A DNA stretch of 29,717 bases. Origin: a virus. Shown here piece after piece: positions 1,838 to 21,627 of this stretch. A program made the position numbers and the translations under genes. Within the stretch, counting starts at the first letter, position 1. Each line of letters opens with the position of its first letter. The DNA lies in the IMG/VR virus record IMGVR_UViG_3300045538_000485, positions 1 to 29,717 of that record, one strand, 5' to 3'. Below the pieces are notes generated by a model. It saw only the letters and a program-made list of their open reading frames with translations. It was not told where the DNA came from and made no database searches.

Positions 1838-4800
1838 TTATTCGTTAATCATTTTATCGATATCATTAATCATATCATTAATGCTTTCATTTATTTTAAT
1901 ATTCTTATTAGAAATTTTAACTCTCTCATTAAGAATGATATCATCTTCTTTTTTAAATGAATTTAATAATTTACCAAAATAAATGTCTTTATATTTATTA
2001 ACTTTTTTATTATAATTAATTCTATTCTCAGTTAATAAATTACCCCAATCTTTAGTTGATTCCTCAGTATTTTCTGGTTCAGTAGCTTCAACTTCATCTC
2101 CACCCTCTTCGCCAAATCCCAATCCTTCATCACCACCTTCATCCGCAACTTCTTCAGCACCTTCATCACCACCTTCATCACCGAAATCTAATCCTCCACC
2201 TCCGAAGCCTCCACCACCGAAACCTCCACCACCTGCGGAACCACCTTCATCACCACCAGTATCACCTCCAGCATCACCTGAACCACCAGCCTTAGCTACA
2301 TTAATATCACCATACAATCTATCAACTTCATCAAATGTACCAGTATGCTTAATAACATTGGCAGTATTCTCCATTTCTGCCGCCGCAGCTTTTTCAACCC
2401 TTTGCTCTAAGAAATCTTGTTTAATTTCATCATCTGACCATTCAAATATTTCTCGTTTACCTCTTGTCATAGACATAGCAGCAAAACCATTACCAGCATC
2501 AACTGTAGCATCTTTATATAAGGTTACCTTAGCTTGCATTTGCTCAATCTTAAGCATTTGTGCTTGAGTTGATGGGTTATTAAGTGTAAGTGTAAAATTA
2601 TCTAACTCATCTTCTAATCCCAGTAAGAATAAATGTAGTATCGCAATCTTATTCAACTCCATAATCATAGATTGCTGAATTCTATTAACAGTTCTAGTAA
2701 ATCTAATATCTTGTAATGCTAAATTTTTACCCTCACCAACAGCCTCATCAAAACCTAAAAAAGATTTAGGAACTCTTAATGCTGTAAATAGTTTACGTTG
2801 AAGGTACTCAATATCAGCTATATCAGATAAATTGGAATTCTTAATGAAAACACCTGATTCTGTAGCAAATGTATGGTAATTATGGTAAATTTCATTACCG
2901 TCAACAGTTATAGTACCTGTATCTTGTCTCTCACTTAACCATTCAATGTTAATTATTTTATGATTATATAATAAACTTTTTTCTTTATTATTTTTTTCAT
3001 ATACAGTGTCAAATATATCATACTGTTCCCCATTAAAGGGTTCGATAAAGTCATTAACTATTCCATGTGTGAACACCCATTCACCTTTTTCATTATCCCA
3101 AATAGTTTCATACTCATTACCAGTATTACCCATTTTTTTAGTATCACGATAAAAAGGCATTAAACTATCACCCACTATCAAATCCTTAGCCTCAACAAAA
3201 CCATCAGTTCTATGTACAAATTTATGGTCTGGTGTTGATATAATTTCTTTACCATTATCTAAGGTAATTTTAATTACTTCAGCATCCCTACGTGTTACAC
3301 CTGCCCAAGTAATCGGTGCAACAGCTAATTCACCAGTTTCTGGATTACAAGAATAAACCCAAAGGTCTCTGTTACCATTGTCCCATTCTTTAATTATTTC
3401 CTGCAATTCAAGTGTTCTACCATCTAAAAGCGGTATACGTGTATCTAATGCAATACAAGCACCTGGAAGTGTATCAATAGGATTTGGCGCATCTTCACTT
3501 CTAACAGGGATGAAGAAATCCTGGTCGTTCGAATTCTTAACAAATACACCACTTTTAGATATTTCACCATCTTTATTAAATGATAAAGTCGCAAAATTAT
3601 GTCTATCATCTTCACCGTTCCTACCTACAACTGTCATACAATAAACATCATCTCCACCAATAAATTCTATATATTTAACTTTATGATTTTTTTTAGTTTC
3701 GGTTATATAATCAGTTATGGTATTAAATCCTTTATCAGCTAATTGTCTTTCAACTACAGTTCTTTCAATCCTTCTCTGATTATTTAATCGTTTATTTTTA
3801 TTTATTGAAATAAGATAATCAAGTACTGGTTCAGTGTTTAAATAATTTATAAGTGTTTTTCTATTTTTTATTTCACCAATGATTGTTTTTTTACGAACAT
3901 TTTCCCATACAGAGTCATCAAAAACGATTCTCATATTTTTTGAACGTATAAGTTTTTTTTCTGGGTTAGACCAATCTTTTAATTGAGCTTCCTTTCTAAT
4001 AATATTATGTTCTTTATGTAAATCAGAATTATTGTAATCAACAAATCTTAAATGCCACTTCTGTTCTTTAGCTAACTCCTTATTACGTTGTTTTTTAGTA
4101 TCAGATTTATTATATTTAGTAATATTTTTACTTGAAATTTCTCTTACATGTGATAATTCATCATTCAAATACATATCCCTTAAAGTCACTGATATCTTTT
4201 CACCTATTCCATCATATATACCGTTTTCCCAGTTTTTTTTAGCTTTTTCACTTATTTTGGGTATTACAAGTTCTCTATGTTTAGGATTCATCCAATTAGC
4301 TTTAGCTAAATCTGAATGCATTTTTTTATGTTCATGAAAATCAACCCATTGTAAGTTATCAAAACGGTTATTATATTTATTAAAATCTTTGTGATGAACA
4401 GTATTATAGTGTTCATAATCCTTAATAATTTCTTCAGCAATTAAACGATGGGTTTTCTCAAATTTACCAGAATTTGGGTTATAAACTTTCTCATACTTAT
4501 CAATATCAGATTTAGCATCATATTTAATTTTCTTATAAAAAGGCATTAAACTATCACCACTTACTAACTCATCAGCTCTTTTACTAGAACCATCACGCAA
4601 TAAGAACGGGTGCTCTTCTGCTGTAACAACATATGTGTCATCATCTAACCATACTTTAACCATACGTTCTGCATTATAATTTTTTCCACACCAAACTACT
4701 TTACCGCCAACAATTTTATGTGTATTATCTTGTACTGAATATACATAATTTTCAACACCTTCATCAAATTCTTTGGCTAATTCTTCAATTGTAATAGTAC

Positions 4801-7042
4801 GACCATCTAGTAATGGTATTGGTGTATTTTTCCATACTGGCATCTGGTTATATTGTAAATCCACCTGACCTGTTCTAGGGTCAGTAATTGGTGTTCTTTT
4901 AAATCTATTAGCAATATCATCAACATATGATGGTACATCTTCCTCATCAATATTACCAACAAATATTTTATATACTCTTCTTTCAGGTGCTCTAGTCACT
5001 CTATAAATAAGCATGGCATCTTCACTTAGATTCAACTGTTTCCAAATACGTCTAGCTTTCTCTAAGATTGAGGTGCCATACGGCAATCTTCTATCATCAC
5101 CTAAGAGTCTAAAGTGTGCAATTTGCCAAGAATTAAACTCAATATCCTTACCTCTCCAAAGAAATTTAACCTTAGCATCTTTATCTTCATTAGTATTTGA
5201 ATTATTCATAATCCTACCAAATATATCACCCTCTCTTCTCTCAATTTCGAAATTAGGTAATTGTCTGGCCCCTAAAACACCTGATTTATCATCAATATTA
5301 AGGAAAACGAAATTATCACCATATTTTACCGTATTCCTTGTCCACATTGGTAATGTTGTATGAATGTCCAATCTATTAAAAAATAAGTCTTCTAATATAG
5401 TTTTTACTCTTTTAGAGTTAGAATAAACGTTTAATACTCTACCCTTATCATTAGTCGTGGTACAGTTATGTGATATAACCATACCATTGTTAGCTTTTAC
5501 TGCAAAATTTTCTGAAACTGATGAATTAACTAAATCATATACCTCATCTTCACCAACATATTCAATACTTATTACTCTATGGTTTCCAATAGTTGACATA
5601 AAATCAGTTAACCCTTTATAGCCTTTGGATTTAATATATCTATAAAATTTGTTAACAGGTATACCCCAATAATCACAATAATTATTAACTCTATTATTTT
5701 TATTTGAGAAATAATTTTTTATTTTAACAATATCAAACCCTTCATTAAACATAAAATCTAAATCTTCAATTCTTTTTAAATTATATTTTTTACATATAAT
5801 TTTATTATAATCTATAACTGTTTTTTCATTTAAATTAAATTTAATCATTGATTTTTTACGTCTATTACCTTTTACATTAACATTAAAATTAATGTAATCA
5901 GTCTCATTTATATCTTCTATATGATTTTTATCATGACTATAATTAGGATTTAATTTACTATATCTCTTACTACCATACATACCATTATGTACACCACCTC
6001 TATTTAAAAATTTATTCCTATCTTCTGGAGGCAATGATTTTAATTTATTTTTTAAACCTTCTTGCAATCTTTTAACTAGTTCTTTTTTATCACTATTAAT
6101 CCATAATTTTTTACCGTTCTCACTAAATATTTTTCTCATTTTTAAAGAAAATTCTTCATCTTCCCACCTTTTTGTATTTAAATCTAAATGTAGTTTTTGA
6201 TGGTCTGACCATAACATATATTCCAACTCATTAGGGTCATTATTTAACTTATTAAAAGATTTGTGATGTATAACTATTTTTTCATTTTCTGGATTGTTAT
6301 CATTTAACATATTTTTAACATCCAACATCTCAGATTCAGCAACGATAACATGAGTATGTTTAGTATCACCATTAAAATTTGTTAAACTAACTCTTTCATA
6401 TCCTTTATAATCCAAACGTCTACTAATACTTTTCAATGAATCACCTTTCTTTAAAGAAACAGTATCAACCCATGTATTATCATACCTTAACCATTTGTGA
6501 TTATCAGTACAAAATAATTCACTATTATCATCTAAAGTTACCTTATAAATTGGTTTAACCCCTTTTAATATTGCTTTTTCAACTTTAGATGGTTTTATTT
6601 TATTATTTTCGATATCTACACTATAAACCCAAAAATCTCTCATGTCGGATTCGTACATTTCTTTAATAGTTAATTCTTTTCCGTTCAATAATGGTATAAT
6701 AGTAGAGCCAGCTAAACATTCTTCCATCATAATATCTAGTGTAGCAGATATTTCAGGATAAAACTCCATTGTTTCAAAATCGGAGTACGAACCAATACGT
6801 GTGGTTTCATAATGAAGTGTTTTTTGAAACATTTCATTATCCACTTTTCTCCACATTCCACCAACATACTTACTCTGCTGAGCTTGTAATTTAGCTAGCT
6901 CATACTCACCCTTATCGGTTGTTTTTAAAATAGCATCATTACCAATAGTATATTTATTAGTTTGAATCCTAGGTGACTGCACACCAGTCGGCCCAAATAT
7001 ATTATTTAGTTTTTGAAAAACCGTTAATTTTTGTTTACTCAT
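1838..7042 (-). CDS. Portal vertex protein (gp20-like) interrupted by three inteins
   Basis: The portal forms the dodecameric ring through which DNA enters the head and on which the terminase docks. The precursor is 1734 residues. Extein segments are residues 1-108, 527-734, 1171-1195 and 1403-1734. Joined, they give about 673 residues with gp20-like stretches such as YGTSILEKARRIWKQL, RAPERRVYKIFVGN, SDIADIEYLQRKLFTALRVP and LALQDIRFTRTVNRIQ. T4 gp20 is 524 residues. The excess is mostly a C-terminal tail with a Gly/Asp/Glu-rich low-complexity stretch (about 1585-1655) and a basic helical end. Inteins occupy residues 109-526, about 735-1170 and 1196-1402. The gene follows an 82-aa gene and the large terminase, as expected for a packaging block. 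A functional portal requires three separate splicing events. Confidence 0.93.
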   Translation of the reverse strand: MSKQKLTVFQKLNNIFGPTGVQSPRIQTNKYTIGNDAILKTTDKGEYELAKLQAQQSKYVGGMWRKVDNEMFQKTLHYETTRIGSYSDFETMEFYPEISATLDIMMEECLAGSTIIPLLNGKELTIKEMYESDMRDFWVYSVDIENNKIKPSKVEKAILKGVKPIYKVTLDDNSELFCTDNHKWLRYDNTWVDTVSLKKGDSLKSISRRLDYKGYERVSLTNFNGDTKHTHVIVAESEMLDVKNMLNDNNPENEKIVIHHKSFNKLNNDPNELEYMLWSDHQKLHLDLNTKRWEDEEFSLKMRKIFSENGKKLWINSDKKELVKRLQEGLKNKLKSLPPEDRNKFLNRGGVHNGMYGSKRYSKLNPNYSHDKNHIEDINETDYINFNVNVKGNRRKKSMIKFNLNEKTVIDYNKIICKKYNLKRIEDLDFMFNEGFDIVKIKNYFSNKNNRVNNYCDYWGIPVNKFYRYIKSKGYKGLTDFMSTIGNHRVISIEYVGEDEVYDLVNSSVSENFAVKANNGMVISHNCTTTNDKGRVLNVYSNSKRVKTILEDLFFNRLDIHTTLPMWTRNTVKYGDNFVFLNIDDKSGVLGARQLPNFEIERREGDIFGRIMNNSNTNEDKDAKVKFLWRGKDIEFNSWQIAHFRLLGDDRRLPYGTSILEKARRIWKQLNLSEDAMLIYRVTRAPERRVYKIFVGNIDEEDVPSYVDDIANRFKRTPITDPRTGQVDLQYNQMPVWKNTPIPLLDGRTITIEELAKEFDEGVENYVYSVQDNTHKIVGGKVVWCGKNYNAERMVKVWLDDDTYVVTAEEHPFLLRDGSSKRADELVSGDSLMPFYKKIKYDAKSDIDKYEKVYNPNSGKFEKTHRLIAEEIIKDYEHYNTVHHKDFNKYNNRFDNLQWVDFHEHKKMHSDLAKANWMNPKHRELVIPKISEKAKKNWENGIYDGIGEKISVTLRDMYLNDELSHVREISSKNITKYNKSDTKKQRNKELAKEQKWHLRFVDYNNSDLHKEHNIIRKEAQLKDWSNPEKKLIRSKNMRIVFDDSVWENVRKKTIIGEIKNRKTLINYLNTEPVLDYLISINKNKRLNNQRRIERTVVERQLADKGFNTITDYITETKKNHKVKYIEFIGGDDVYCMTVVGRNGEDDRHNFATLSFNKDGEISKSGVFVKNSNDQDFFIPVRSEDAPNPIDTLPGACIALDTRIPLLDGRTLELQEIIKEWDNGNRDLWVYSCNPETGELAVAPITWAGVTRRDAEVIKITLDNGKEIISTPDHKFVHRTDGFVEAKDLIVGDSLMPFYRDTKKMGNTGNEYETIWDNEKGEWVFTHGIVNDFIEPFNGEQYDIFDTVYEKNNKEKSLLYNHKIINIEWLSERQDTGTITVDGNEIYHNYHTFATESGVFIKNSNLSDIADIEYLQRKLFTALRVPKSFLGFDEAVGEGKNLALQDIRFTRTVNRIQQSMIMELNKIAILHLFLLGLEDELDNFTLTLNNPSTQAQMLKIEQMQAKVTLYKDATVDAGNGFAAMSMTRGKREIFEWSDDEIKQDFLEQRVEKAAAAEMENTANVIKHTGTFDEVDRLYGDINVAKAGGSGDAGGDTGGDEGGSAGGGGFGGGGFGGGGLDFGDEGGDEGAEEVADEGGDEGLGFGEEGGDEVEATEPENTEESTKDWGNLLTENRINYNKKVNKYKDIYFGKLLNSFKKEDDIILNERVKISNKNIKINESINDMINDIDKMINE
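2837..3457 (-). mobile_element. Portal intein 3: mini-intein with eroded endonuclease
   Basis: This is residues 1196-1402 (207 aa). It begins at Cys1196 (CIALDT), has block B at 1270-1273 (TPDH), a weak block F near 1375-1392 (TGTITV then HTFATE), and ends IKN before Ser1403, with Lys instead of His next to the final Asn. It resembles intein 2 in IPLLDGRT, GDSLMPFY and SGVF(V/I)KN-SN. Between blocks B and F it keeps only the start of the same endonuclease domain: a pattern like YE..(Y/W)(D/N)....G.(W/F)..TH..(I/V). It lacks the His-His-Asp core and everything after it. It should splice but cannot home. Confidence 0.87.
3533..4840 (-). mobile_element. Portal intein 2: HNH intein without an N-terminal nucleophile
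   Basis: This is residues about 735-1170 of the precursor. Aligning all three portal inteins on the IPLL(D/N)G motif puts residue 1 at Pro735 (PVWKNTPIPLLDG), where the other two have Cys. Removing 735-1170 also restores a portal-like junction, YNQM-SNDQDFFIPVR. The first residue is therefore not Cys, Ser or Thr. Block F reads VYCMTV with Cys1135 where intein 1 has Asp. Block G ends VKN before Ser1171, with Lys replacing the usual penultimate His. Block B is TAEEH, one residue longer than TxxH. The HNH endonuclease has His883-His884, Asn891 and His903/905. Cys1135 may replace the missing N-terminal nucleophile, as in class 3 inteins; this is inference. Confidence 0.85.
5465..6718 (-). mobile_element. 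Portal intein 1: canonical class 1 intein with HNH endonuclease
   Basis: This is residues 109-526 of the portal precursor (418 aa). Block A begins at Cys109 (CLAGST), block B has the TxxH motif at 179-182 (TDNH), block F reads EVYDLV near 500-505, and block G ends SHN with Asn526 followed by Cys527. All residues for standard splicing are present. The middle carries an HNH-type homing endonuclease with His259-His260, Asn267/268 and His281, followed by long basic helices and a helix-turn-helix-like end. It interrupts the exteins between ...DIMMEE and CTTTNDKG.... It should be active in both splicing and homing. Confidence 0.9.
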
Positions 7043-14697: not shown

Positions 14698-16470
14698 TTA
14701 ATTAGATAATGGTAACCTTATTGGTGGGTGTGATTGGTAGTTATCTATAATAAAATCATTAATATTTAAATTGGTTAATAGGTTTAAGTCCTCACCTAAT
14801 GATTTATAAAAATCATCACTTTTAACATGTTTTAATGTGGGTAATGGAAATGGGTTTCTACTTAATTGTTCTTTGATACCATCAATATGGTTCGAATAAA
14901 TATGACAATCACCTAAACTACAACTTAGTTCACCTGGAACCATATTAACCATTTTACCTATAATCTCCAATAGTAAAGCATAAGATGCGACATTATATGG
15001 CCAACCCAATCCAACATCCACCGACCTCTGTGACCATTGTAATGAGATTTCTCTTTTTGGTGTAGGTGTATAATAATTATTATCAAAATCTGGTAATTTG
15101 TTTGGGTCGAAATATCTTTCCATACCAGTTTCATAATTATTAACAAACCATAAATTATATCGTTCTTCTAGTGTTAATTCTCTAGTCCAAACTTGGAATC
15201 CATAGTGACAAGCTGGTAAACATAAATTATCTAATTGATTTGGATTCCAAGCTGTAACTAACATTCTTCTAGAGTCTGGGTTGGTTTTTAATGTATTAAT
15301 TAATTCTTGTATTTGGTCAACACCATCACTTATCTTATTTTTACTTATTAAATGCCATCCTTCGCAATTTAGTCTGTCGCCTCTTAACATAGAAGCAAAA
15401 TTACCTTGATTATTTATTTTAAATTTATTTATAAAGTCAACATGATTTATAAATTCATGTTCATCAACACCATTGCTAACTTTATATATGAATTTTTGTC
15501 TATTCTTTTTTACATTATCTGATTTACTTAACCAGCAACAAGTTTCTAAAGAATATTTAAAACCATCACCATATATATCTTTATCTAAATCGTATTCATC
15601 CCAATTACTTACTTTATTTTCCCAATTTTTAATCTTATCAACATCAGATAAAAAATATTCAAAACATAACCACCTGTTTTCAACGTAAACACCTCTACCA
15701 CCATAATAATTATAGTTGTCATTTGATGGGTTATAACATCTACTAATCATACCATTCCAAATATTTTTAAGTTTTTCAATATTTAAATGGTTATATTTTT
15801 TATATTTACCCACACAAGCAACACCTTTTTTAATAGGCATATATGGGTCAACAATATTAGCACCTAATTTATCTTTTCTAATATTTTTTATAGTATTAGT
15901 ATTGATAAATTGTATTTTATAGTGTATCTCATTTCTATCACCTTTTTTAAGTGAATCTAACACAATATAATTACCATAGTTTAAAGTACTAAATTCTTTA
16001 CCCACATTTTCATCATTTGAATCTAGATTATGTGATTCTTTAATAAAAGATGTTTTAAAAGGCGTTGTTACTCTCTTTCTATTGTAGTTGTTTGAGCCGA
16101 AATTTCTCCATTGATGTGGATATAAAGCACCCCCTTCGTATAAATTTGAGTCTAATTTTGCTAATTCTTTATATTTAGAAACATCTACACCATGATATTT
16201 ACTTAAATCACCATTCCAAATATTACAACCATTATCAACTAAATATTTAATACTAGTATTGCCTCTAAGAAAATACAGTAATTCAGCTATAATACCTTTG
16301 AAATACATTTTTTTAGTTGTGAGCAATGGAAATTTACCATCTTTAAACTTATATCTGATAGTACGACCAAATACACTTAAAACCTCACCATTGCGAGTAT
16401 TTTTCTTCGACCCGTTTTCCAATATATCCTTTAAAAGGTCTATATATTGTTCGTCTAATCCATTTTTCAT
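14698..16470 (-). CDS. thyA: Thymidylate synthase with in-frame endonuclease-like insertion
   Basis: Thymidylate synthase methylates dUMP to dTMP using methylene-tetrahydrofolate. The frame is 590 aa against about 264 in E. coli. Family motifs are intact: FPLLTTKK (48-54), YPHQWRNFG (117-125), NPDSRR (397-402), the catalytic cysteine Cys421 in LPACHYGFQV, QRSVDVGLGWPYN (481-493), the GDCHIYSNH segment (520-528) and a C-terminal PPIRLP. Residues about 127-383 are foreign and replace the variable loop between QWRNFG and GVDQI. A second, smaller insertion (about 428-470) occurs in some other phage and bacterial ThyA proteins. The start overlaps the stop of the endonuclease gene by 4 bases. Whether the insertion stays in the mature enzyme is open; the site is a tolerant surface loop. 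Confidence 0.93.
   Translation of the reverse strand: MKNGLDEQYIDLLKDILENGSKKNTRNGEVLSVFGRTIRYKFKDGKFPLLTTKKMYFKGIIAELLYFLRGNTSIKYLVDNGCNIWNGDLSKYHGVDVSKYKELAKLDSNLYEGGALYPHQWRNFGSNNYNRKRVTTPFKTSFIKESHNLDSNDENVGKEFSTLNYGNYIVLDSLKKGDRNEIHYKIQFINTNTIKNIRKDKLGANIVDPYMPIKKGVACVGKYKKYNHLNIEKLKNIWNGMISRCYNPSNDNYNYYGGRGVYVENRWLCFEYFLSDVDKIKNWENKVSNWDEYDLDKDIYGDGFKYSLETCCWLSKSDNVKKNRQKFIYKVSNGVDEHEFINHVDFINKFKINNQGNFASMLRGDRLNCEGWHLISKNKISDGVDQIQELINTLKTNPDSRRMLVTAWNPNQLDNLCLPACHYGFQVWTRELTLEERYNLWFVNNYETGMERYFDPNKLPDFDNNYYTPTPKREISLQWSQRSVDVGLGWPYNVASYALLLEIIGKMVNMVPGELSCSLGDCHIYSNHIDGIKEQLSRNPFPLPTLKHVKSDDFYKSLGEDLNLLTNLNINDFIIDNYQSHPPIRLPLSN
15322..16092 (-). mobile_element. AP2/HNH homing-endonuclease-like domain inserted in ThyA
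   Basis: This is residues about 127-383 of the ThyA frame. It follows a layout seen in free-standing phage endonucleases. An N-terminal strand-rich region (GNYIVLDSLKKG, YKIQFINTNT, VDPYMPIKKGVACVG) leads to IWNGMISRCYNPSNDNYNYY-GGRG with NRWLCFEYFLSD, then LDKDIYGDG...YSLETCCWLS, then a NUMOD/AP2-like end with NNQGNFASMLRGDR and GWHLIS. No intein blocks are present: no Cys or Ser at the first position, no TxxH and no terminal HN. It stays in frame on both sides. It is either an unspliced domain insertion or, less likely, an intron whose reading frame is open throughout. Confidence 0.75.
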
Positions 16471-17489
16471 AATATAATAAAATTAAAATTAATGTTTTTA
16501 TTTAAAACTGATTCTCTTTTTAAAAGGTTTTTTTCTTTTTCCTTATTAAAGGTGTAGGTTGATTTCACTTCAATTACTCTGTTTTCCGATTTGATATAAA
16601 TGTCTGGATAGTATCGATGAGTTTTGTTTTCATACTCATAATGAAAAAACCCAATCTCGTCAATAATATTTTGTACACCAACTATAATATCGTCCTCATT
16701 ATAATCGACAACTAACTTCGCCAACACTTTCGGTTCGTACCCTTGGACTCTAACAATCTTACCAGATGGGAATTCAAAATCATAATAGGAATATCCCCCA
16801 GATTGTTGTTTAGCGTTTATACTATCTACTTTTGACACCCACTCCTTACCGTATTTTTCCAATGCGGTTTTGACGCATCTATCATACCAATCATTAGTAG
16901 ATGAGTAGTACTCAACACCATATTTTTCCATGTTAGTATTTTTCATTTTAGAATACAACTCTTCTGATGCCAGACCTACACCGCCATATCGTTCAATAAA
17001 TGTCTCATTTCTTTTTTCTATGATATGCTTATTTCTCATGGCATAATCACCCCAATGTTTGATATGAGATTGTTTATTCTTTTCAATGACTTCTGGTAAC
17101 TTTGATGCTATATCCACCCCATATTTTTTGATGTTTGTGTATTTCCTCTTTGTTTGTATTGTTGATATTTCATGCTTATTTTTATTATTCCATGTCATCT
17201 TCATTCGAAGTATTTCCTCAGCATTTGTATTTGAACATGCACTAGAACAAAAAGTATTTTTAACATTTAATAGAATTTTACCACATTCTTTACATTTTTT
17301 TGGTACATTAACAAAACCTTCTTTTATATAGTTAAATCTAAAACGTAAGTGTGTATTATCAGGTAAAAAATTAGTCGCATCTATCAAAGCATCTAAATAC
17401 TTTTTATTCCCCGATATCTTTATTTTTTTAGTATTAATACCACCTTTTTTATTCGTAAAGTCTAGTAATATTTTATCTATAATATTCAT
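16467..17489 (-). CDS. Putative PD-(D/E)XK homing endonuclease
   Basis: The protein is 340 aa. A Cys4 zinc-binding site near the N-terminus (Cys66, Cys69, Cys81, Cys85) is followed by repeats of the type KYGV/RYGG..S with adjacent helices (about 122-215), probably DNA-binding modules. The C-terminal domain carries a PD-(D/E)XK nuclease signature: Pro295-Asp296 in YYPDIYI, then Glu307-Val-Lys309 in VIEVKSTYTF. This architecture is known in free-standing phage homing endonucleases. It lies between a 51-codon thymidylate synthase remnant and the complete thyA, overlapping the thyA start by 4 bases, so it probably cuts thyA alleles that lack it. A GATATTTAT element precedes its start. Confidence 0.78.
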   Translation of the reverse strand: MNIIDKILLDFTNKKGGINTKKIKISGNKKYLDALIDATNFLPDNTHLRFRFNYIKEGFVNVPKKCKECGKILLNVKNTFCSSACSNTNAEEILRMKMTWNNKNKHEISTIQTKRKYTNIKKYGVDIASKLPEVIEKNKQSHIKHWGDYAMRNKHIIEKRNETFIERYGGVGLASEELYSKMKNTNMEKYGVEYYSSTNDWYDRCVKTALEKYGKEWVSKVDSINAKQQSGGYSYYDFEFPSGKIVRVQGYEPKVLAKLVVDYNEDDIIVGVQNIIDEIGFFHYEYENKTHRYYPDIYIKSENRVIEVKSTYTFNKEKEKNLLKRESVLNKNINFNFIIL

Positions 17490-18542: not shown

Positions 18543-19427
18543 ATGAAAAGAAAACGAGAGATTGTAAAAAAAGTTAAAATCATAATGAATTTAGCTCAAC
18601 AAGAAGGTAAAGATAATGGTGATAGAGAATTAAAGTTGGAACATATAGTTTTAGCTATATTAAATGAAGATACAAATAAGTCTAATTTAATATTAAAATA
18701 CATGGGGATTGATACACTTAGTTTATATGATTTAGTCAGCGAACATCTTAGACACTCACAATTAAATGTTAATTTAAATACTAATAAAAAATTAAGATTA
18801 CCGCACGATATCAATAGCACTAAAATCATGAAAGAATTAGATGTTGAGTCTGAACATATGGGTGATATGTATATTGACACTACTCATATTATGTTAGCAC
18901 TATTAAAAGAAAAGAATTTACCGTTAGTTAAATTATTAAACAAAAATAAATTAACCTATAATAACTTTAAAAAAGGTATTATTAATTACTACAATGCAAA
19001 TTCTAAAGAATTAACTGATTACGAAAAAGAAAAAATAAAAGATATGGAGAAACAAAATAAAGAAAATTTAGACAATAACCCTATTAAAAATTCATTACCA
19101 TTTGATGATGACGATAAGAACGAATTTGCTAATAGTGGTAAAATGAAAAATAGTAAAAAAGAAGGTACTAAAACACCAGTATTAGACAACTTCTGTAGAG
19201 ACATTTCTAAAATGGCCGAGGATAATGAATTAGACCCAGTGGTTGGTAGAGGTGTTGAAATTAAAAGAGTATCTCAAATATTAGCTAGACGTAAAAAAAA
19301 TAACCCAATTTTGATAGGTGACCCTGGAGTTGGTAAATGTATTTGTGCTGATACTCAGGTAGTTATGAGGGATGATACTACTGGTGAAACGTTTAAAATT
19401 AGTATTGGAGATATTTTAAAAAGATAA
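18543..19427 (+). CDS. clpC: ClpC-type unfoldase, N-terminal part fused to intein N-half
   Basis: The protein is 294 aa. Residues 1-150 form the Clp N-domain, a double helical repeat that binds adaptors or substrates (EHIVLAILNE, then THIMLALLKEKN). A charged linker follows (about 155-210), then the start of the first AAA+ domain (DPVVGRGVEIKRVSQIL). The frame reaches the Walker A motif GDPGVGK (259-265), then passes straight into an intein N-half from Cys266 (CICADT) and stops at residue 294. The remaining AAA+ domains are in the next gene, starting after the matching intein C-half. This product is not functional alone: it has the phosphate loop but no Walker B. Expected role after splicing: ATP-driven unfolding of proteins, probably with host ClpP. 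A host-type promoter lies just upstream. Confidence 0.92.
   Translation: MKRKREIVKKVKIIMNLAQQEGKDNGDRELKLEHIVLAILNEDTNKSNLILKYMGIDTLSLYDLVSEHLRHSQLNVNLNTNKKLRLPHDINSTKIMKELDVESEHMGDMYIDTTHIMLALLKEKNLPLVKLLNKNKLTYNNFKKGIINYYNANSKELTDYEKEKIKDMEKQNKENLDNNPIKNSLPFDDDDKNEFANSGKMKNSKKEGTKTPVLDNFCRDISKMAEDNELDPVVGRGVEIKRVSQILARRKKNNPILIGDPGVGKCICADTQVVMRDDTTGETFKISIGDILKR
19338..19424 (+). mobile_element. Split intein N-half (29 residues)
   Basis: This is residues 266-294 of the first ClpC gene. It begins with Cys266 and contains only block A and the next strand-helix (TQVVMRDD, ISIGDILKR), then TAA directly followed by TAG. Block B and everything after it are encoded by the next gene. N-halves of about 25-37 residues define the atypically split inteins known from phage metagenomes, such as the AceL terminase intein. 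Confidence 0.88.
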
Positions 19428-19455: not shown

Positions 19456-19842
19456 ATGGAAATAGAAAATAAAAATATGAGTGAATTAGAATCATTAAAA
19501 AAAATAACTAAATCCTGGGACATGTCTAATTTTAGTATTATGACTGATACTGGATTTGAAAAACTAGAAAAACTACACGAAACTGTGGAATATCAAGTAT
19601 ATGAATTGGTCTTATCGGATGGAAAAACATTAAGATGTGCTGATAATCACATAGTCTTTACTGAATCACTAAAAGAGGTTTTTGTTAAAAATTTAAATAT
19701 AGGTGACACGATTATTGTTGAAGGTAATAATACTAATGTGGTTAGTGTAACTGATTTGGGATATAAGGAAGTTATGTATGACTTTGAATTGTCAGAAGAA
19801 TCAAACCATAGGTACTATACCAACGGTATATTATCTCATAAT
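19456..19842 (+). mobile_element. Split intein C-half (129 residues)
   Basis: This is residues 1-129 of the second ClpC gene. A short helical leader with charged residues leads to STRAND-rich TDTGFEKLEKL. Block B is CADNHIVF (61-68, cADNH in place of TxxH), block F is MYDFEL near 107-112, and block G is GILSHN with Asn129 followed by Thr130. There is no endonuclease domain. Thr as the first C-extein residue and Cys as intein residue 1 fit class 1 splicing in trans. Confidence 0.88.
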
Positions 19843-21627
19843 ACGGCAATCGTAGAAGGTTTAGCGATATTAATTAAAGAAGGTAAAGCACCTAGAGTTT
19901 TAATTGATAAAAAAATATATTCTTTAGATTTAGCGGCAATGGTAGCTGGTACTAAATATAGAGGACAATTCGAAGAAAGAATGAAAGCTATTCTTGAAGA
20001 ATTAAAAGGTAATAAAGATATTATATTATTCATTGATGAGATTCACACAATTGTAGGTGCTGGAAATGCATCAGGTTCAATGGATGCTGCTAATATATTT
20101 AAACCAGCATTAGCTAGAGGTGAAATTCAAGTTATTGGTGCCACCACCTTAGATGAATTTAGAGAGCATATAGAAAAAGATGGAGCATTAACAAGAAGAT
20201 TTCAACAAGTATTAATTAATGAACCAACATTAGCTGAAACAATTATAATATTAAATAATATTAAAAATAAATACGAAGACTATCATAAGGTTATCTATAC
20301 ACCTGAAGCCATTGAAGAATGTGTTAAATTGTCAGATAGATATATTATGGATAGGTCTATGCCCGATAAGGCTATTGATGTATTGGATGAAGCGGGTGCG
20401 ACTACAAATATAAATCATGAAACTCCAGAAAATATTAAGATATTAGAAGAGGAAAAGAATAAGATTATTGCTAAAAAATTTGAAGTCGTTTCTAAACAAA
20501 AATATGAGGAAGCTGCAAAGCTTAGAGATGAAGAAAAAAATATTAATACCGACCTAGATGCTGCCAAAAAAGAATGGATTGATAGTATCGATAAAACAAG
20601 AACAGTTGTCGATGTGAACCTAATCGCTGAAGTTATATCTATGATGAGTGGAATCCCAATTAAGAAAATTTCAGCGCAAGAAACTAAGCGACTTATGAAC
20701 ATGGATAAAGAATTAACTGGTAAAGTTATTGGTCAAGATGATGCAGTAAGTAAAGTTGTTAAAGCTATTAAACGAAATAGACTTGGTATTAAAGATAAAA
20801 CAAAGCCGATTGGGTCCTTTATCTTCCTAGGGGCGAGCGGAGTAGGTAAAACTTTTTTAGCTAAGTTATTAGCTGAACAAATATTTGGTGATGCTGACTC
20901 TTTAATTAGAGTTGACATGTCAGAATACATGGAAAAACATGCCACATCCAGACTTATTGGAGCACCACCAGGGTATGTAGGTCATGAAGAAGGTGGGCAA
21001 TTAACTGAGAAAATCAGAAGAAAACCTTATTCAGTTATCCTGTTTGATGAAATTGAAAAAGCGCATGACGATGTATTTAATTTATTACTACAATTACTTG
21101 ATGAAGGTCATTTAACAGATGGTTTAGGTAGAAAAGTTAATTTTAAAAATACCCTAATAATACTTACATCTAATATTGGTGTTAAAGAATTGAATAGTTT
21201 CAGTAAAGATATGGGTTTCAAAACTAATGCAACCATTGCCAATGAAGAAGAAAGGTCACGCTCAATTATTGAAAAAGCATTAAAGAAGAAGTTTAAACCA
21301 GAATTCCTTAATAGACTTGACGATACAATAATTTTTAATAACCTTAAAAAGGAAGATATTCATAAAATTATTTATAATGAATTAAAAAAACTTGAAGATA
21401 GGGTTAAAGAAGAATTAAATATAACACTTAAGATTAATAAGAGTGCTGTAGAATACGTGGGCGAACAAGGTTATGATGAAGCTTATGGTGCTAGACCACT
21501 TAATAGAGCAATTCAAAAATATATCGAAGACCCCGTTGCTGATGAAATCCTTAGTGGTAACTTTAAAGATGGTGATACCATTAATATTACTTATGATAAG
21601 AAAAATAATAAGATGATACTTTCATAA
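19456..21627 (+). CDS. clpC: Intein C-half fused to the rest of ClpC-type unfoldase
   Basis: The protein is 723 aa. Residues 1-129 are the intein C-half; residues 130-723 are ClpC from the Thr that follows the Walker A lysine. Visible features are Walker B ILFIDEIHT (190-197), an arginine-finger region ALTRRFQ, and a short ClpC-style middle domain with a UVR-like KYEEAAKLRDEE (349-360). The second AAA+ domain follows, with Walker A GASGVGKT (459-466), Walker B VILFDEIEKA (527-536) and GYDEAYGARPLNRAIQ near the end. SKDMGF (583-588) sits where ClpC has its ClpP-docking (V/I)GF loop. Trans-splicing to the first gene would give about 859 residues, normal for ClpC. The start is 28 bases after the first gene, with an in-frame TAA just upstream, so this is a separate gene and not a frameshift continuation. 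Confidence 0.92.
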   Translation: MEIENKNMSELESLKKITKSWDMSNFSIMTDTGFEKLEKLHETVEYQVYELVLSDGKTLRCADNHIVFTESLKEVFVKNLNIGDTIIVEGNNTNVVSVTDLGYKEVMYDFELSEESNHRYYTNGILSHNTAIVEGLAILIKEGKAPRVLIDKKIYSLDLAAMVAGTKYRGQFEERMKAILEELKGNKDIILFIDEIHTIVGAGNASGSMDAANIFKPALARGEIQVIGATTLDEFREHIEKDGALTRRFQQVLINEPTLAETIIILNNIKNKYEDYHKVIYTPEAIEECVKLSDRYIMDRSMPDKAIDVLDEAGATTNINHETPENIKILEEEKNKIIAKKFEVVSKQKYEEAAKLRDEEKNINTDLDAAKKEWIDSIDKTRTVVDVNLIAEVISMMSGIPIKKISAQETKRLMNMDKELTGKVIGQDDAVSKVVKAIKRNRLGIKDKTKPIGSFIFLGASGVGKTFLAKLLAEQIFGDADSLIRVDMSEYMEKHATSRLIGAPPGYVGHEEGGQLTEKIRRKPYSVILFDEIEKAHDDVFNLLLQLLDEGHLTDGLGRKVNFKNTLIILTSNIGVKELNSFSKDMGFKTNATIANEEERSRSIIEKALKKKFKPEFLNRLDDTIIFNNLKKEDIHKIIYNELKKLEDRVKEELNITLKINKSAVEYVGEQGYDEAYGARPLNRAIQKYIEDPVADEILSGNFKDGDTINITYDKKNNKMILS

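Follow-up and report, generated by a model that had tools for sequence, protein, structure and literature searches.

A proline-initiated intein in a phage portal protein that appears to use an internal cysteine

How can an intein be removed from its host protein when its first residue carries no nucleophile? The question is raised by the second of three inteins that interrupt a T4-type portal protein encoded in a 29,717-nucleotide stretch of viral DNA (IMG/VR record IMGVR_UViG_3300045538_000485), referred to here as the window. The portal ORF lies on the minus strand (7042..1838), encodes a precursor of 1734 aa and matches the portal protein family phrog_213 with an E-value of 5.9e-40. Intein 1 (5465..6718, minus strand; aa 109-526) is a class 1 intein with Cys1 and a His-Asn end, and intein 3 (2837..3457, minus strand; aa 1196-1402) is likewise class 1 with Cys1, but has no HNH hit and ends in Lys-Asn. 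Intein 2 (3533..4840, minus strand; aa 735-1170) comprises 436 residues from Pro1 to Asn436. The window also contains a ClpB-like AAA+ ATPase gene (18543-19427 and 19456-21627, plus strand) split at the Walker A lysine (GVGK/) by what looks like an atypically split intein, with an IntN of about 29 aa, a double stop, a 28-nt gap and an IntC of about 131 aa ending in SHN/TAIVEG, the latter being 38-45% identical to terminase inteins of Vibrio and other phages. In addition, a thymidylate synthase ORF of 590 aa (14698-16470, minus strand) has an in-frame insertion of roughly 250 aa with no Pfam intein hit and no Rfam intron match, and lies next to a gene for a protein with DUF7487 and a weak TnsA-like endonuclease match (16467-17489, minus strand).

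The unusual residues of intein 2 are confirmed. The first residue is Pro735 of the portal precursor (Pro1, position A:1; 4838..4840, minus strand), in place of the class 1 nucleophile. Block B reads TAEEHPF, with Ala74 at B:7 (4619..4621, minus strand) replacing the Thr of the class 1 TxxH motif, His77 at B:10 (4610..4612, minus strand) and Phe79 at B:12 (4604..4606, minus strand). Block F reads VYCMTV...DRHNF, and its Cys401 at F:4 (portal Cys1135; 3638..3640, minus strand) falls in the same alignment column as the Cys of the class 3 inteins with the Trp-Cys-Thr (WCT) set and the Asp of DnaBi2. Block G ends in Val434-Lys435-Asn436 at G:5, G:6 and G:7 (3533..3541, minus strand), followed by the Ser+1 of the C-extein (3530..3532, minus strand). 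The earlier note had correctly observed that the Thr of the WCT set is missing from its expected place, but overlooked that the Trp is absent as well, so that the triplet reads F-C-V instead of W-C-T. The penultimate Lys, which the note had also pointed out, is not distinctive, since the neighboring intein 3 likewise ends in Lys-Asn. An HNH homing endonuclease core is found inside the intein (4283..4456, minus strand; residues 129-186; phrog_7545, E-value 9e-10), although Pfam HNH_3 matches only below its cut-off.

The boundaries of intein 2 are fixed by an intein-free homologue in the contig L016, which has the identical flanking protein sequence YNQM/SNDQDFF, with 130 of 150 and 139 of 150 identical bases on the two sides. 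The insert is thus exactly 1308 nt, and no other start is compatible with the empty site, so no nucleophile is hidden nearby. The AlphaFold2 model (mean pLDDT 86) is a HINT fold in which Pro1 to Asn436 align from residue 1 to the last residue of the Mtu RecA, Msm DnaBi1 (6BS8) and Mch DnaB1 (6RIX) inteins with Z scores of 16-20 (up to 20.5). The TIGR01445 profile scores above its cut-off, whereas the Pfam splicing model does not detect intein 2, although it finds inteins 1 and 3.

Intein 2 is not a unique case. Scans of uncultivated viral contigs with three different seed sets revealed 64 distinct complete relatives at three portal sites, with 42 at site 1, which is that of the window, 19 at site 2 (WTRN/CKYGD) and three at site 3 (PGGQF/TGDID), while a search of 50,697 phage genomes gave only class 1 relatives and no Pro1 type. 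Pro1 occurs in 63 of the 64 sequences although it was present in none of the seeds, and among the 34 sequences whose codons were tabulated all four Pro codons are used (6/13/9/6), which indicates that selection acts on the amino acid. The F:4 Cys is present in all 64; it was included in one of the seeds but not in another, with which every readable member nevertheless has it. The B:10 His is also found in all 64. The B:7 residue is Ala in all 42 site 1 members and Thr, Ser or Ala at site 2. The B:12 residue is Phe, Ile, Leu, Tyr, Met or Val at sites 1 and 3, and Trp only in three site 2 members (L357, L399 and L400), while Thr at G:5 is found in a single site 2 member (L354), G:5 at site 1 being Val, Leu, Ile, Met or Cys. 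Single WCT residues therefore appear piecemeal in the family, but no member has both Trp and Thr. G:6 is never His, and the terminal residue is Asn in 63 of 64, with Gln in L068 (3001-4218; GGIFMFQ/SVDEDYF). A block F His, His414 in intein 2 (DRHNF; 3599..3601, minus strand), is invariant in 34 of 34 sequences and is a candidate to assist Asn cyclization. A further cysteine of unknown role, Cys51 (WCGK; 4688..4690, minus strand), is near-invariant, being Cys in 63 of 64 relatives and Ala in L378, whereas it is Ala in most class 1 cousins. Mini-inteins of 165-214 aa that have lost the nuclease (L085, L086, L087, L400, L378 and L404) keep the same residues.

The residue following the intein provides a sign of splicing. 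Occupied sites always have Ser, Cys or Thr at +1, in 42 of 42 cases at site 1 compared with 5 of 13 distinct empty flanks (Fisher p 1e-6), the other eight having Ala or Gly, and in 19 of 19 cases at site 2 compared with 14 of 27 (p 2e-4). The sequences are related and the p-values are therefore only indicative, and biased insertion into such alleles would give the same pattern, but that too implies a need for the +1 nucleophile.

To determine where the family belongs, genuine WCT class 3 inteins were collected, consisting of two mycobacterial DnaB inteins, one of which was searched against the PDB and matches 6RIX and 6BS8 at E-values of 1e-55 or better, and more than 35 inteins from phage contigs with HxW, the block F Cys and THN. 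In HHalign profile comparisons of the splicing domains, the family scores 285 with 43% identity against class 1 inteins at the same site and 268 with 34% identity against the intein 3 type, but only 35 with 15% identity against the WCT class 3 inteins. In a tree calculated without the catalytic columns the family forms one clade (98/87) among class 1 inteins, while the WCT inteins form a separate clade (100/100), and FastTree gives an agreeing result. However, the AU test does not reject a tree in which the family and the WCT inteins lie on the same side (p 0.19), because the long WCT branch is hard to place. A position outside the WCT clade is thus well supported, while a fully independent origin is likely but not proven. 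Of the two possibilities offered in the earlier note, a variant of class 3 or a separate solution, the residues favor a class 3-type mechanism and the phylogeny favors the latter.

As regards INTERMEDIATES, the contig L039 has a site 2 intein with both Cys1 and the F:4 Cys that shares the derived features of the family (WC, VYCMEV and DRHNF) and branches below all 41 Pro1 inteins in the tree (82/79), although the support is moderate and its Cys1 could be a reversion. In the sister class 1 group at site 1, L084 and L090 have Cys1 and Asp at F:4, whereas L088, L092, L094, L097 and L098 have Cys1 and Cys at F:4. A path from Cys1/Asp-F via Cys1/Cys-F to Pro1/Cys-F therefore has living representatives at each step, although its direction is inferred. 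Another intein with both Cys1 and a block F Cys (TYCLTA) is found in the dCTP deaminase of a cultured phage, Aphanizomenon phage CL131 (L008, 1443-3110).

Taken together, intein 2 is most likely an active intein that splices by a class 3-type route, with a probability of roughly 0.78 in the absence of a splicing assay. In the proposed mechanism, Cys401, helped by His77, attacks the carbonyl of Met-1 at the Met-Pro junction and forms a branched thioester, Ser+1 takes over the N-extein by transesterification, Asn436 cyclizes, probably helped by His414 because the penultimate His is missing, and an O-to-N shift joins YNQM to SNDQDFF, while the HNH domain makes the element mobile. The family appears not to have descended from known WCT class 3 inteins, but to have come out of class 1 portal inteins of T4-like phages through forms that carried both cysteines, and then to have fixed Pro1, lost the block B Thr at sites 1 and 3 and never assembled the full Trp-Thr set; the chemistry, the order of steps and the direction of evolution are all inferred. 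Published work makes such a mechanism feasible, as the AceL NrdHF intein splices by the class 3 route with Met at B:12 and Ala at position 1, its G:5 Thr-to-Ala mutant is about tenfold slower but active, and it lacks both C-terminal histidines (PMC7891396). The loss of the TxxH Thr also fits, since that residue is described as spring-loading a position 1 nucleophile (PMC6195587). On the other hand, Trp at B:12 matters strongly in published WCT inteins (PMC5222942), and grafting WCT onto a class 1 intein with Cys1 removed failed (PMC7664689). It is somewhat more likely than not that block F-cysteine splicing evolved a second time in this way and that an obligatory Pro1 replaced the Trp-Thr support of classical class 3 inteins. 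The role of Pro1 is a guess, namely that the Met-Pro imide bond may be easier to strain and break. In AceL NrdHF an Ala1Gly substitution abolishes splicing, which shows that the backbone at position 1 matters.

Other explanations appear unlikely. The family could be a diverged branch of the classical WCT lineage that lost Trp and Thr, as the nucleophile layout is the same, some WCT inteins (e.g. L254 and L270) also start with Pro, and the AU test leaves the junction unresolved; the profile scores and the WCT clade nevertheless argue against this, the signature GWTTMGD region is missing, and the endonuclease is of the HNH type, whereas 82.5% of catalogued class 3 inteins carry LAGLIDADG motifs (PMC7891396). 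Direct attack on the N-junction by the +1 residue, which would agree with the lack of a nucleophile at position 1 and the invariant +1 nucleophile, is reported only for class 2, and Cys is usual at +1 outside class 3 (PMC5222942), while at site 1 the residue is Ser or Thr in 33 of 42 members; moreover, the F:4 Cys is invariant, and in the Bvi IcmO intein even a natural Cys+1 cannot replace the block F Cys.

The least likely alternative is that Cys51 is the initiating nucleophile, since, despite its conservation, L378 has Ala there with everything else intact and the position lies between blocks A and B, not in a known catalytic block. Finally, intein 2 might be splicing-dead or only cleave, with the portal gene broken or rescued by another copy, given that its catalytic residues depart from both class 1 and WCT class 3, that one decayed class 3 intein is known (PMC3196547) and that the relative L070 is frameshifted. 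This is also improbable in view of the open ORF in an essential gene, the residue-level conservation across 64 diverse sequences at three sites, the dependence on a +1 nucleophile and the persistence after loss of the endonuclease.

Class 3 inteins were described as monophyletic with an essentially fixed WCT signature, with class 1 inteins bearing Cys at F:4 scattered (PMC3196547), and as unlikely to evolve directly from class 1 (PMC7664689). The present family looks like a natural case of that transition with living intermediates, which makes the origin of a catalytic mechanism accessible to simple mutagenesis, and it also offers new inteins, including forms of 165-175 aa without a nuclease, that appear to need no cysteine at the N-junction. 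Among 1701 catalogued class 3 inteins, Trp and Thr deviations amount to 6.1% and 4.6%, respectively (PMC7891396), and no paper on a Pro1/Cys-F portal family was found, although some members may already be counted among the tabulated signature deviations. The family is regarded here as working like class 3, but not as a member of the WCT class 3 family.

Compared with the WCT class 3 inteins, such as Msm DnaBi1 (PDB 6BS8), Mch DnaB1 (6RIX) and that of the mycobacteriophage TerL, intein 2 shares the lack of a nucleophile at position 1, the Cys at F:4, the His at B:10, the terminal Asn and Ser+1, but differs in having no Trp at B:12, no Thr at G:5, no penultimate His and an HNH nuclease. The AceL NrdHF split intein (MCT; PDB 6ZGQ) demonstrates class 3 chemistry without Trp and without the penultimate and block F His, and shows that the triplet is not strictly needed, but it keeps Thr at G:5 and has Ala1, whereas this family lacks Thr too, G:5 being Thr in only one of 64 relatives, and fixes Pro1. 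The class 1 portal inteins of T4-like phages at the same or nearby sites (L084, L090, L092 and intein 3 of the window) have the same site, block architecture and, in the full-length ones, the HNH domain, with 41.6% mean identity in the splicing domain, but start with Cys1, have Asp, Thr or Cys at F:4 and keep the TxxH Thr. Finally, the class 2 (KlbA) inteins also have no nucleophile at position 1, but intein 2 has Ser+1 rather than Cys+1, and an invariant block F Cys.
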